A stretch of 64,000 nucleotides of DNA from an uncultured Bacteroidia bacterium (GTDB lineage Bacteria; Bacteroidota; Bacteroidia; NS11-12g; UBA9320), in the NCBI GenBank assembly GCA_943787465.1, contig CALSMN010000004.1, forward strand, positions 62,001 to 126,000. The letters are read 5' to 3'. Positions 18,760 through 25,149 of this stretch are shown piece by piece. Numbering within the stretch: the first letter of the stretch is position 1; each line of letters begins with the position of its first letter. The notes below the pieces were generated by a model that saw only the letters and a list, made by a program, of their open reading frames with translations, made no database searches and had not been told where the DNA came from. The translations under genes were made by a program, and so were the position numbers.

Positions 18760-19773
18760 TCAATCTGCCCTTTTAATTAATCCAAATATAAGTACTTTGT
18801 CCGCAAATAAGCAAATTTTGTAAAAGAGTGTATTCGTGTTTTTATTAAAAAAACTACTTGCCATTGCATGAGATCCTGCATCTTTAATATTTTGAACATG
18901 AAGTTTCTCACTTTTCGTTCCCAATTCAGAAGACATTTTCAGAATTGCATCAACTGAAACTACTTTATCTTGATGATCTTCATCTTTATAATAATAGCCA
19001 ACAAATACGGGCACTTGAACTTTTTTAAAAACTTCAGTTTTCATTGTATTCTCAACAAAAAACTGCAATTCAACCAATGATTCTAATCTATATTTGGTAT
19101 GCCAGAATGGTCTAGCCGCTTCAGGTGCCCACCAGCTATGATAATTACCCCCTTTTACCGCTCGAGCAATTTGAAGACCCCATGGTCTAGATAATAGAAA
19201 AGATTTAGAATCTGCAATTTTTATATTCGGCGAAAAACAAATTAGGCTATGGATCTTGTTTTGATCATTTGAAGCTAAATACAGAGCAGCAGTACTCCCT
19301 GTACTCGTACTCATAATAATTAACGAATCACCCATAGCACGAGCTATTTTTACCGCATCTTTAGTCGAGTTTAGAAATTTTTGGCCTGTGAAATTTATCA
19401 TTGCCTCTGACTCATTCAAACCATGATCTGCCAGAAGTGGTGCATACATGTTCATATTGTATTTTTTTGCAAATTCTAAGTGGATAGGGTCTCCCTCCAT
19501 GGGACACGCAGAGAAACCATGTAAGTATAACAAAACATATTTTGTTTTTTTACCTACAGAATCATTCCAATAGATTAAACTTTGATTTCCAGGTTTAATT
19601 CTAGTAGATTTATTGTTTGCTCTGACAATAGAGTCAACCTCAAAAACACGTATTGGATTTTCAGTATAATCGATCATACTGGAATACTGAATAGTTGTTT
19701 TAGATGTCCATGAGAAATAAATAAGACATATAATACCCATTGACAATGACCCATATAAAAGTATTTTTTTCAT
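18760..19773 (-). CDS. Membrane-anchored alpha/beta hydrolase
   Basis: 337 residues with one N-terminal hydrophobic helix (about 4-22) as anchor or signal. Alpha/beta-hydrolase fold: LLYLHGFSACPMEG (oxyanion region, HGFSA at 85-89), nucleophile elbow STSTGS at 155-160 with Ser157 as likely nucleophile (the usual first Gly is Ser), an acid in YKDEDHQDK, and His in DAGSHAMAS near the end. Probably an envelope esterase or lipase. Substrate unknown. No close operon partner. Confidence 0.8.
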   Translation of the reverse strand: MKKILLYGSLSMGIICLIYFSWTSKTTIQYSSMIDYTENPIRVFEVDSIVRANNKSTRIKPGNQSLIYWNDSVGKKTKYVLLYLHGFSACPMEGDPIHLEFAKKYNMNMYAPLLADHGLNESEAMINFTGQKFLNSTKDAVKIARAMGDSLIIMSTSTGSTAALYLASNDQNKIHSLICFSPNIKIADSKSFLLSRPWGLQIARAVKGGNYHSWWAPEAARPFWHTKYRLESLVELQFFVENTMKTEVFKKVQVPVFVGYYYKDEDHQDKVVSVDAILKMSSELGTKSEKLHVQNIKDAGSHAMASSFFNKNTNTLFYKICLFADKVLIFGLIKRAD

Positions 19774-19876
19774 GGTTCGATATTACATTTTATAGGGGAG
19801 TTAATAATAATTTTATTGCCAATTATTTTTATATCTTATTTTCGAATATTACTTACCTAATAAAAAGCTATCTATC

Positions 19877-22746
19877 GTGTTTCATTTTTTATTTGAACCA
19901 TTTGCTAAAAAGGCAACTGCTATCGCTCTAATTATCCTATCATTTTCTTCGCTATCTAACGCTCAAACTCTTAGTGGTATGGTTATCGATAAAAATAATG
20001 ATCCTCTAATTGGAGCATATATTACTGTTCCAAAAATAAAAGGAGTCGGTACCATAAGTGATGAATTTGGCAAATTTAGTTTAGATATAGAATCATATCC
20101 AGTTTCCATTTTAGTATCCTATTTAGGATATGCTAATCAAAACATGACTGTAAAATCTCCGATTTCTGATCTTAAAATCATCATGTCTGAAACCAAAATA
20201 GATGTATTGACTGGTGCTGTTGTCAAGGCGAGTAGGGTTTCTGAAAAACAAAAAGAAACACCACTTACCGTTGAATCTATTGGGATGAAAGCTATAAAAG
20301 ATGCTCCTTCCGCTTCTTTTTATGAAAGTTTAGGAAATTTAAAGGGTGTAGATGTAACAGCTGCAAGTTTAGGATTCAGAGTTGTCAATACGCGAGGTTT
20401 CAATAGTACTAGTCCGGTAAGATCTCTACAACTCATCGATGGAGTAGACAACCAATCCCCTGGATTAAATTTTAGTTTAGGAAATTTTCTTGGAGCTAGT
20501 GATATTGACATTCAAAGAGTGAACGTGATTGCTGGAGCAAGTAGTGCTTTTTATGGACCTAATGCTTTTAATGGTGTAATAAGTATGGAAACTAAAAGTC
20601 CTTTCCTATTCCCTGGAGTTATGGCAGAAGTAAAGGTTGGTGAACGCCAAATGGGGCAGGTTCAGTTTAGACTAGCTGATTATTTTTTGAATGATGAAGG
20701 TAAGCAAAAGTTTGGCTATAAACTAACCGCTAGTTACATGCAGGCTAATGATTGGAAAGCTGAAAACTACCAAGCCACCCAAGATTCTGAGTTTGATGAA
20801 ACAAACCCGGGCGGATACGATGCAGTAAATATCTATGGTGATGAAAATTATGAAGATCGACTTAATCCAAGTGGGCAATTGGACTACCCTGGATTGGGAG
20901 CATTTTATAGAACAGGATACCGTGAAGTTGATCTTGTTGACTACCACACTGATAATATTAAAATAAATACAGCATTTTTTTATAAAATCAATGATGAATC
21001 AGAATTAGAGTATGCATTCAATTTTAGTGGGGGGAGTACCGTTTACCAAGGCGATAACCGCTATAAATTAGAGAATATTCGTTTTTGGCAAAATAAAATA
21101 GAGTGGCGAAAAAAAGGAAAATATTTCTGGAGAGCTATACTCTACTAATGAAGATGCTGGAGATACGTATGATATTGTTGCTACTGGTTTTGAAATGAAT
21201 AAGAGAGCCATTGATAATAATCAGTGGTTTACTAGTTACGCAAATTGGTGGAGACAACCTTATTCTGCAGGATATAAAGTAAAACAATTACCTAATTACC
21301 CTAATTATTCTCAGTCTGTACATCAAGATGTTCCCAACTGGATTATAAATTATTTGAATCCATTTTTAAATCAAAACCAAGACTCATTGATAAAATGGCA
21401 TAATGACATTAGATCACGAAATGATGCTTCAGGAGGAGGCATATTCTCCCCCACGATTTATGCCCGGAACTGCTTCATTTGACAGTGTATACAGCATTGT
21501 AACTTCTCAACTTTTTACTAATGATGGTACTCGTTTTTTTGATCGATCAGCTTTATACCACACTCAAGGAGAATATATCTTTACACCTGAAATTGGTAAA
21601 ATAACATTAGGAGGTAATGCTCGTTTATATAGACCTAACTCTCGTGGCACTATTCTTAAAGATACTGGAGATGTGGTTATCACTAACTACGAAGCGGGCA
21701 TGTATAGTGGAATTGAAAAAAGATGGCTGATGGATAGAATCATCGCTAATGTAACTGTTCGAGTAGACAAAAATCAAAACTTTGATTTCTTGACCTCACC
21801 AGCCGCCTCCTTTATATATAAATATAGAACTAATCATGTATTCCGTGCCTCATTTTCGTCTGCTATCCGAAATCCAACCTTAGCCGACCAGTATTTGTAT
21901 TACGATGTAGGAAGAGCTCGATTAATTGGAAACTTGGAAGGATATGATTCATTGATTGATATTCAATCATTTTTAGATTACAGTGCCACCACATTTAAAC
22001 CCTCCTTACTCAAATATTACAACGTTGATCCTATTCGACCTGAACAAGCTAAAACCATTGAAATTGGCTATAAGGGAAATATTTTAGATCAATCCTTATT
22101 TATTGATGCTGGTTACTACTTTACCTCCTACACGGATTTTATTGGCTATAATATTGGTATAGATGCCTACATTGACCCAATTAATAAATTCCCCACCAAT
22201 ATTGGCATATACAGAGTCGCTGCTAATGCTCAGAATAAAGTCACAACTCAAGGAATAGCCATTGGTCTAAATTATTATTTTAATAAAATGGCTTTGGGAG
22301 GCAACTATTCCTGGAATCAATTAAACAAAAAAGGGACTGATGATCCGATTATTCCAGCTTTTAATACACCTGAACACAAATTCAATATCAGCCTATCTGG
22401 AGATAAAATAAAATTTCCCTTGTTTGATGGTGAAAATTTTGGATTTGGAATCAATTACAAATGGATACAAGGATTTGTATTTGAGGGATCTCCTCAGTTT
22501 ACAGGCAATGTACCTACCTATGATATGGTCGATGTACAAATAAACTATCAAAACCAAAAGTTAAAAACTAACTTTAAATTGGGTGCCTCAAATATTTTAG
22601 GAATTATGCCCCTTTTTGATGGGGTAAATGAAAATACGCAACGCTCCGTATTTAATAATTTAAATTATCAAGTATACGGTGGTCCATATGTTGGAAGAAT
22701 GATTTACTTCTCTGTTCAAACTGATTTAAAATTTACTAAAAATTAA
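19877..22746 (+). pseudogene. TonB-dependent receptor, two frameshifts
   Basis: Starts at a GTG (19877) with a signal peptide ending LSNAQ, a carboxypeptidase-regulatory-like domain (TLSGMVIDKNNDPLIGAYI, about 35-115), a plug domain (SLQLIDGVDNQSPG, VIAGASSAFYGPNAFNGVI) and a 22-strand-type barrel. The frame breaks twice: near 21137 (first part ends RAILY at 21148; the continuation reads YSTNEDAGDTYD) and within the GGAGGAGG stretch near 21431-21438 (continuation AYSPPRFMPGTASF). Each break is undone by dropping one base. The barrel then runs intact to the C-terminal DLKFTKN. It is either a broken receptor or an error-bearing sequence. It precedes a T9SS-exported protein by 45 bp. Confidence 0.85.
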
Positions 22747-22791
22747 TTTTTAAAATTAAACTATTATCTTGCAAAATAAAACCAATTAAAA

Positions 22792-24471
22792 ATGAAAAAA
22801 CAATACTTAATTTTTACCCTTCTATTATCTTTCTTATCAAGCTCATTGTTAGCTCAAAAAAGATATTTAGATCCTGTATACTCAAATACAGACATCGAAG
22901 TAACTAGCAATGTAAAATATGCGACTAACATTGATTTTTTAACTTCTACTTTAGATAATCCAATGCAAATTGGAGCAGATATCACTGAAATCAAAACTGC
23001 TATTTTTACGGGACAAGCCATCCCTGGAAAATTCTTTGACCCAACTGACGGTTCAACCGATGTAAAAGTTACCGATTTGAAAATGGATATTTATCGTGCT
23101 AAAAGTAGCGTGGATTCAAAAACAGATCGCCCTGTTATTGTATACTTACATACTGGTAATTTTTTACCTCCGCCAATTAATGGTTCACCAACAGGTTTGA
23201 AAACAGACAGTTCTGCAATTGTACTATGCACGGAGTGGGCTAAAAGAGGATATGTTGCTGTTTCTGTTGATTATCGTTTAGGATGGAATCCTTTAGCCGG
23301 TACAGAAGAAGAACGAAAAGGACAATTGTTAAATGCCGTATACCGTGCGATTCATGATGTAAAACAGTGTATTGCTAATTTAAGGACAGATGCAGCAGGA
23401 AGTAATTCCTATGGAATCGATGGAAGTAAAATTACTTTATATGGAGAAGGTACTGGCTCCTATATTGCTCTTGGGTATGCTACCTTAGACAAGTATACAG
23501 AAATGGAGTTACCTAAATTTTTAAACCCTTTATCAAATAAATCCTACATCGATACAACAACAGTAGGCCGAATTGATGGATCAGGTGGTCTTTTAAATCT
23601 ATATGGTGCTCCATCTACAGATGTAGCGGTACAATCGGTAGTAAATGCAGGTGGTGCCTTAGCAGATACCTCATGGTTGGAAGCAGGAGATGCTCCAATG
23701 GTAACTTTCCATGCGGTTCGCGATCCTTTTGCTCCATTTAATGAAGGTATTGTCGTTGTACCGACTACCAATGGAAATGTAGTTGAAGTACAAGGGGCCA
23801 ACTTATTTATTCAAAAAGCGAATTCTATTGGAAATAATGACGTTATCAAAAATATGCCTGCAGGAAATGCATATAACATAGTTGCTCGTTCACATTATGG
23901 TAAAACCGTTGACTACATATACCCTTCACCTGGTGATAAAATGACTATCAATAGTGATGTTGAAAATTTATTTCCAATTTTAAGACCTGTAGCTTCAAGT
24001 GTATTTACTAATCAAGCAGGACCATGGCAATGGTGGGATCCTCAATCACCCCTTGCAACTCATGAATTAGCCCCTGGAATAACTACTCACATGAATAGTT
24101 TACAGTCAAATCCAGGAATGTCACCCGAACAAGGAAGAACGTTCATAGATACTATTATGGGTTATATGTGTCCTCGTATTGCAGTAATTAATGGTGCATA
24201 TACCGTAGATCAATTATCTACAGATGACAAACTACCTCTTAATGCCGCTTCAATTTACCCAAATCCTGTTAAAGATGAAGTAACTATCACTGTAAATAAT
24301 CTATATCGTGTTGAATCTATATCCGTAATGGACCTAACCGGTAGAATTTTGAAAAATATATCCGCTTCAAATAGTACACAGATAAATTTATCCGATTTAA
24401 AATCTGGTTATTATATCATAAATATTAAAACATCTGAAGGTGTTTTATCTTCTAAATTAATGAAACATTAA
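22792..24471 (+). CDS. T9SS-exported alpha/beta-hydrolase-fold protein lacking the nucleophile Ser
   Basis: 559 residues. A signal peptide (cleaved after LLAQ, about 22) is followed by an alpha/beta-hydrolase domain: VIVYLHTGNFLPPP (oxyanion strand, 115-128), GYVAVSVDYRLGWNP, and the elbow ITLYGEGTGSYIALG (214-228), where the nucleophile position of GxSxG is Gly220. The C-terminus from IYPNPVKDEVTI to SSKLMKH is a type A T9SS sorting domain, so the protein should be secreted or surface-bound. Without the Ser it may bind rather than hydrolyse. It directly follows the TonB receptor and is followed by a terminator. Confidence 0.85.
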   Translation: MKKQYLIFTLLLSFLSSSLLAQKRYLDPVYSNTDIEVTSNVKYATNIDFLTSTLDNPMQIGADITEIKTAIFTGQAIPGKFFDPTDGSTDVKVTDLKMDIYRAKSSVDSKTDRPVIVYLHTGNFLPPPINGSPTGLKTDSSAIVLCTEWAKRGYVAVSVDYRLGWNPLAGTEEERKGQLLNAVYRAIHDVKQCIANLRTDAAGSNSYGIDGSKITLYGEGTGSYIALGYATLDKYTEMELPKFLNPLSNKSYIDTTTVGRIDGSGGLLNLYGAPSTDVAVQSVVNAGGALADTSWLEAGDAPMVTFHAVRDPFAPFNEGIVVVPTTNGNVVEVQGANLFIQKANSIGNNDVIKNMPAGNAYNIVARSHYGKTVDYIYPSPGDKMTINSDVENLFPILRPVASSVFTNQAGPWQWWDPQSPLATHELAPGITTHMNSLQSNPGMSPEQGRTFIDTIMGYMCPRIAVINGAYTVDQLSTDDKLPLNAASIYPNPVKDEVTITVNNLYRVESISVMDLTGRILKNISASNSTQINLSDLKSGYYIINIKTSEGVLSSKLMKH

Positions 24472-24488
24472 CTAAAATAAATGTATTG

Positions 24489-24529
24489 AAAGCCCGAAAT
24501 CCAAAAATAGATTTCGGGCTTTTTTTTTT
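24489..24529 (+). terminator. Strong Rho-independent terminator
   Basis: A 13-bp perfect stem (AAAGCCCGAAATC with GATTTCGGGCTTT) with an 8-base loop, then a T run, 17 bases after the stop of the T9SS-exported protein. Confidence 0.93.
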
Positions 24530-24624
24530 CATTATTTTATCCAGATTAAATACGTTTTTGAGACTAATAGCGATAGGATAAACCAAAAGAACTAAACCTA
24601 AGGAAAGAGGAATTGATACGTAAA

Positions 24625-25149
24625 TTACTGGATATATTTTTTTTGTAACGCTTTTAGTAGGTTCTTGGATAAAGAAGAATCCTTCTTCAAAACTGCAGAT
24701 GAGATGAAACCATCAAAATAAGACAAAATAAGCTCAGCTTCTGTATTCGTATCAGGATACCGCAATGCTTGTAGTGCTTCAATTAGTATTATTTTCATCG
24801 AAGTTGCATGATTATGCATTAGATCTAAATTTTGCCATTTAAGTGCATAGACCAACTGCCAATATGGAAATTGAATTTCAGGGATAGAAAAGGGCAATTC
24901 CATTATACGCTGAATTCGTATTTGAGGAGATTCTATGTTACCGATATCCTCCAATATTTGATTAAAATCTAACTTCCATTGAGTTAATGTCTGATTAAGT
25001 AGGCCTTTTTTGTCTTTAAAATGTTTAAATATTAGACCTTCAGAAACCCCTGCGTGTTTAGCTATTGTATTGGTCGAAACTCCATTATAGCCTTTATATG
25101 CAAATAAATATAAGGCCGAATCTAAAATTGATTGCTTTTTATTGGTCAT
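24625..25149 (-). CDS. TetR/AcrR family transcriptional regulator
   Basis: 174 residues. The N-terminal helix-turn-helix (SILDSALYLFAYKGYNGVSTNTIAKHAG, split here as SILDSALYLFAYKGY and NGVSTNTIAKHAG, then VSEGLIFKHFKDKKGLL) is classic TetR. The C-terminal part would bind an inducer. Three paired TAAGT...ACTTA-like half-sites lie just upstream (25155-25235), which suggests it represses its own gene. No efflux or metabolic target gene adjoins it. Confidence 0.92.
   Translation of the reverse strand: MTNKKQSILDSALYLFAYKGYNGVSTNTIAKHAGVSEGLIFKHFKDKKGLLNQTLTQWKLDFNQILEDIGNIESPQIRIQRIMELPFSIPEIQFPYWQLVYALKWQNLDLMHNHATSMKIILIEALQALRYPDTNTEAELILSYFDGFISSAVLKKDSSLSKNLLKALQKKYIQ

Follow-up and report, generated by a model that had tools for sequence, protein, structure and literature searches.

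What does a predicted secreted hydrolase do once it has lost its nucleophile, and what ties it to the TonB-dependent receptor encoded next to it? This question is raised by a locus in the window, the whole stretch of 64,000 nucleotides from an uncultured Bacteroidia bacterium that was analyzed here. An initial annotation of this DNA had described a protein of the alpha/beta-hydrolase fold, exported by the type IX secretion system (T9SS), and had proposed that it is a surface binding protein handing a ligand to the receptor encoded 45 bp upstream. Below, F denotes the family of the window pseudo-hydrolase (profile A2, built from 11 members), and T denotes the receptor family (profile built from receptors adjacent to F genes). 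The features of the locus are as follows.

19877-22746, plus strand: partner TonB-dependent receptor with CarboxypepD_reg, plug and barrel domains; reading frame interrupted near 21137 and 21452 in this assembly
22792-24471, plus strand: pseudo-hydrolase predicted to be exported by T9SS, an ORF of 559 aa
22792-22857, plus strand: signal-peptide-like hydrophobic N-terminus, judged by eye
23083-23526, plus strand: BD-FAE (alpha/beta-hydrolase) domain, residues 98-245 (Pfam, 33.6 bits against a cut-off of 26.8, E 3.5e-8)
23443-23457, plus strand: nucleophile elbow GEGTG, residues 218-222, with Gly220 replacing Ser (read from the sequence; Gly220 codon at 23449-23451)
23722-23724, plus strand: Asp311, at the triad's former acid position, retained in 112/117 members
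24022-24042, plus strand: aromatic motif PWQWWDP, residues 411-417, specific to the F family (alignment)
24253-24465, plus strand: T9SS type A C-terminal sorting domain, residues 488-558 (Pfam, NCBIfam)
24488-24523, plus strand: intrinsic-terminator-like hairpin followed by a T run (terminator search)

The window protein is an esterase-type fold with a T9SS sorting signal

Translation of the window bore out the elbow that the initial annotation had read as GEGTG with Gly220 for Ser; the GxSxG nucleophile serine expected of a catalytic BD-FAE enzyme is not present. The sorting domain is intact, as had been claimed, with a Por_Secre_tail match at residues 488-556 (Pfam) and a TIGR04183 match of 54.9 bits against a cut-off of 23 (NCBIfam). 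Both TIGR04183 and BD-FAE (E <= 0.001) were found in all 46 F members scanned, and the SusD family was found in none of them. The first 145 residues of the window protein are free of Cys, and no lipobox Cys is present. By the features tested, F is neither a SusD nor a lipoprotein. SprA of the T9SS translocon is encoded in the same genome (2434 bits). A single terminator-like site was found in 19700-24700, the one 3' of the pseudo-hydrolase gene, and the 45-bp gap that separates this gene from the end of the receptor ORF at 22746 contains none.

Residues 22-474 were modeled from 17 alignment rows with a mean pLDDT of 78.9 and a pTM of 0.85; an earlier 11-row model was of low quality (pLDDT 62) and supports the fold only. 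The best Foldseek matches were the lipase Lip_vut4, the esterase Est2 and a gut carbohydrate esterase, and neuroligins were also among the matches. Superposition with VIA-align gave a Z of 23.1 and an rmsd of 2.8 A over 236 residues for 7bfr, and solved esterases including Est2 gave a Z of about 23 and an rmsd of 2.8-2.9 A over about 236 residues. Of the 453 modeled residues, roughly half are outside this shared core. Together with the BD-FAE match, these comparisons confirm that the fold elements are intact, and the window protein, as modeled, has an esterase-type alpha/beta-hydrolase fold.

The catalytic triad is lost throughout the F family

The initial annotation had suggested an alignment of homologues to see whether Gly at the elbow is family-wide. 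Gly220 is common to all 15 close relatives, the window protein counted in. In a first set of 107 distinct proteins, the 103 scoring above 240 bits carried Gly (98), Asn (3), Ala (1) or Tyr (1) at position 220, and the four under 240 bits all carried Ser. A clean bit-score split between the Gly and Ser forms was rejected, however, as it was apparent in the best matches per genome but fails for individual proteins, among which Ser forms reach 269 bits. In a 117-member alignment, comprising F proteins at 170 bits or more with the Ser-bearing members included, position 220 was Gly in 102 members, Ser in 5, Asn in 4, Ala in 2, Tyr in 1, another residue in 1 and a gap in 2, indicating that Gly at the elbow is indeed family-wide.

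Position by position in the alignment, no His lies within two columns of the canonical catalytic position in any of the 82 F rows of the tree described below; all 31 canonical hydrolase relatives in the same tree carry Ser, and 27 of them have His in the aligned column. The only invariant His in the F alignment is His120, in an oxyanion-type motif, and it is also present in most of the canonical relatives. An active triad rebuilt elsewhere in the protein, a case that the initial annotation had set against its own reading, was rejected because His120 is the sole invariant His; no residue for such a triad was found. The family is marked instead by Trp165, Asp453 and the PWxWW motif. By the features tested, F members are not working serine esterases, and their genes call for caution against annotation as esterases.

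The residues that F does keep raise the alternative of a changed active site, in which the hydroxyl has shifted to Thr/Ser 221, acting with Asp311 or Asp453, and F prepares a substrate for import by T. Consistent with this, 111/117 F members carry Thr or Ser at position 221, where 27/31 canonical relatives have Ala, and both Asp311 and Asp453 (115/117) are retained. However, the residue after the nucleophile normally contributes to the oxyanion hole through its backbone, which counts against a new nucleophile at this site, and the single invariant His, His120, is mostly shared with canonical relatives. We consider this alternative unlikely.

To place these losses in order, we used a tree of 113 rows below 80% identity with the elbow columns left out (SH-aLRT support only, quick search, midpoint root). 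The F clade of 82 rows was separated from the 31 canonical hydrolases with a support of 100. Four Ser-bearing rows and one Asn row branch outside the remaining F clade; the next branch is a group of four rich in Asn. Ser is found at the elbow of L158, L159, L162, L165 and L183 (189-269 bits), none of which has the canonical His. Because early-branching members keep Ser without His, the branching order suggests that the triad probably lost His before Ser, and these five proteins possibly represent the intermediate stage.

The partner is an uncharacterized TonB-dependent receptor

The TonB-dependent receptor that had been reported 45 bp upstream is found at that position; it is not one open frame in the window, being broken twice. 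In this assembly it consists of three successive frames, and relatives are intact at about 954 aa (one 954-codon ORF in L018). Compared with L018, the three receptor pieces gave a pN of 0.10-0.13 and a pS of 0.71-0.78, and the pieces and the pseudo-hydrolase gene taken together gave a pN of 0.10-0.16 and a pS of 0.68-0.78, indicating purifying selection. Because all pieces are still constrained, the breaks appear to be recent or an assembly error.

Five intact T proteins stayed below the cut-off of every NCBIfam receptor model. In the SusC/RagA comparison (cut-off 368 bits), four of them scored 87-136 bits and the fifth was not listed, and the SusC in L132 scored 665 bits. Among solved chains at E <= 1e-10, T matched N-terminal domains only, and for this reason we rejected T as an already known receptor. 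These results indicate that T is, by these tests, an uncharacterized receptor family.

F and T are usually adjacent

T lies directly upstream of F on the same strand in 101 of the 141 genomes with listed F positions. In the others it is downstream (3), farther along the same contig (4), on another contig (21) or not among the listed rows (12). At the protein level, T is directly upstream of F in 83/103 among the matches listed, and some of the remaining F proteins are tandem second copies or have T downstream (L088, L121). No T was found within about 1.3 kb upstream of five Ser-bearing early-branching F genes. Thus, of the question whether the receptor is always adjacent, the usual linkage stands, with co-occurrence even where the genes are unlinked, and strict adjacency does not. 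The opposite case named in the initial annotation, homologues mostly with GxSxG and no receptor partner, does not describe this family, in which Ser is rare and the receptor is the usual neighbor.

Clustering of 506 neighbor ORFs from 70 loci revealed no third widely common gene at the F-T loci, and a larger conserved gene cluster was rejected, the commonest neighbor gene occurring in just 8/70 loci. A divergent hydrolase-like gene lies beside the F-T pair in 8/70 loci, 7 of these 8 being the window or its close relatives; in the window it is found at 18760-19773 on the minus strand and encodes a 337-aa protein with the elbow STSTG and without a Pfam or NCBIfam match. By eye, a carbonic-anhydrase-like gene follows the pair shortly downstream in 4/70 loci (L009, L013, L018 and L078). 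Canonical-looking Ser hydrolases adjoin the receptor and a dead copy at L021:1397-3076, L022:430-2091 and L135:3388-4674; a T9SS tail was confirmed in L021 and L135, and the gene lies upstream of the receptor in L021 and L022.

A second alternative is that F serves as a neuroligin-like surface adhesin or structural cap, and that T anchors F or senses through it without importing a ligand bound to F. Loss of catalysis with retention of the fold fits such a role, as do the neuroligins among the Foldseek matches, which are serine-less adhesion proteins as far as the report cited below describes them. However, the neighboring T has a plug and a barrel, the usual build of an importer, and no third gene such as a sensing regulator recurs widely beside the pair in the 70 loci. 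This alternative seems to us improbable.

F and T co-occur across Bacteroidia

We surveyed 395 Bacteroidia genomes, scoring F as present at E <= 1e-57 and T at E <= 1e-170, with at most two T candidates scored per genome. F was present in 171 genomes, roughly two fifths of the sample, and T in 177; both were found in 165, F only in 6, T only in 12 and neither in 212 (Fisher p 2e-87, which is not a true probability since the genomes are related). In at least one of the T-only genomes (G332), a fragment of F is present at the edge of a contig. The 171 F-positive genomes include carriers of the Ser form, and T is therefore not strictly tied to the Gly form; the Ser form co-occurs with T, yet was not seen adjoining it. 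Presence of the T9SS as the sole cause of the co-occurrence was rejected: SprA was found in 385/395 genomes, and within the SprA-positive set the association was unchanged (both, F only, T only and neither in 164, 6, 12 and 203). Among 150 genomes of 15 families picked for differing members, the corresponding numbers were 87, 5, 4 and 54. In a draw across the phylum, 4/118 genomes had F at E <= 1e-55 among the matches listed, all of the same class; all 24 genomes listed in this draw belong to one class, and it says little on other classes.

That F and T merely hitch-hike, as genes common in shared lineages and neighbors through descent but with no joint function, is very improbable: related genomes are not independent and all carriers among the matches listed fall in the same class, but presence and absence shift jointly within families (4 genomes with both, 10 with neither and 0 discordant in f22), and the two genes co-occur even when unlinked.

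F and T co-diverge

Divergence was compared in 20 genomes with a full F and T pair and a listed SprA position, after removal of a few near-duplicate or faulty rows. The distance correlations were 0.70 for F-T, 0.44 for F-SprA and 0.42 for T-SprA. The partial correlation of F and T given SprA was 0.63 (permutation p 0.0002), and that of F and SprA given T was 0.22; for the difference between the two partial correlations, bootstrapping gave a 5-95% range of 0.03-0.79. F and T co-diverge beyond the SprA yardstick, which could be explained by co-evolution and by joint transfer of two linked genes alike.

Some F proteins are associated with glycan-related domains

Additional domains of F proteins and neighboring genes offer leads to the ligand. 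L131:840-4277 and L132:6836-10273 encode 1145-aa F proteins with starch-binding modules of the CBM20 type and with X25 and dockerin-like domains, L132 also having a CBM48-like domain, and both genes are divergent from an adjoining SusC/SusD pair. In L110:6824-8683 and L111:6809-8725, a SusE domain over the cut-off lies between the hydrolase and sorting domains; the two F proteins of L112:2176-6275 have a SusE-like domain just under the cut-off in the same place. At L129:6842-11635, two tandem F genes, the second with Tyr at position 220, are followed on the same strand by a GH13 alpha-amylase. These three groups of loci weakly suggest alpha-glucans as the ligand of F. None of the CBM20, SusE and amylase associations was found on the window protein (Pfam). 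Because the pair is present in 165/395 sampled genomes, the ligand is probably ordinary and important.

A candidate capture partner for TonB-dependent import

The reading we favor, with a probability of roughly 0.55, is that F is a non-catalytic BD-FAE-type surface partner of T, exported by the T9SS, that captures a ligand for T. It combines what was observed by computation (the hydrolase fold, the lost triad, the sorting signal, and the linkage, co-occurrence and co-divergence of F with T) with an analogy to SusCD, BtuBG and XusAB. F would be exported by the T9SS and retained at the cell surface, would bind a ligand within or close to the pocket of the lost active site, and would then dock on T and hand the ligand over for TonB-driven import. 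Several points speak against the capture-partner reading: T is broken twice in the window and lies on another contig in a share of the genomes (21/141), the Ser form is not seen beside T, and the near-fixed Thr/Ser221 may be a new active site.

For the family as a whole, we give an even chance that Bacteroidia possess an additional class of capped TonB-dependent transporters, in which the partner would be a T9SS-exported dead esterase derived from a secreted hydrolase that lost His and then Ser. As far as the cited reports describe them, the surface partners of TonB-dependent transporters in Bacteroidota are lipoproteins (PMC10404256, PMC13142918). A partner delivered by the T9SS, if true, would link two systems characteristic of the phylum, and would give a function to many genes now modeled in databases merely as T9SS proteins or esterases. 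F may represent a new type of partner that captures nutrients for uptake. In a literature search covering openly accessible journal papers, judged from their listings, no paper was recognized as describing the F-T pair.

Comparison with known systems

SusC/SusD (RagA/RagB) resembles T and F in that a receptor and its surface partner are encoded together, and T shares with SusC a CarboxypepD_reg domain ahead of the plug. By contrast, the partner in SusC/SusD is a lipoprotein of the SusD fold, whereas F has the alpha/beta-hydrolase fold and a T9SS signal, and T lies below both the family and the signature cut-offs of SusC/RagA. In BtuBG and XusAB, lids that are lipoproteins take up the ligand and deliver it to the transporter, according to the parts of the reports that describe them (PMC13142918, PMC10404256). 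There too the surface partner (BtuG for BtuB, XusB for XusA) is specific to one receptor family, as F would be to T; BtuG and XusB are surface lipoproteins, whereas the window F protein has a T9SS sorting domain in place of a lipobox Cys. F would act like SusD, BtuG or XusB but differ from them in fold and in export route.

The esterases BD-FAE, Est2 and Lip_vut4 have the same fold as F, which differs in having lost Ser and His and in its extra stretches, including the PWxWW motif. Neuroligin is, in the part of the report concerned with it, a serine-less cholinesterase-like binding and adhesion protein (PMC12931606), an extracellular hydrolase fold turned to binding after loss of the nucleophile, much as we propose for F; unlike F, neuroligins are animal cell-adhesion proteins without a receptor of the TonB-dependent type. 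For retention at the surface, T9SS cargo of P. gingivalis is described as attached to A-LPS in the relevant text of PMC10202324. Finally, NF052323 (NCBIfam) is another family of inactivated T9SS hydrolases, of the M6-like metalloprotease type, so that dead enzymes among T9SS cargo have a precedent.
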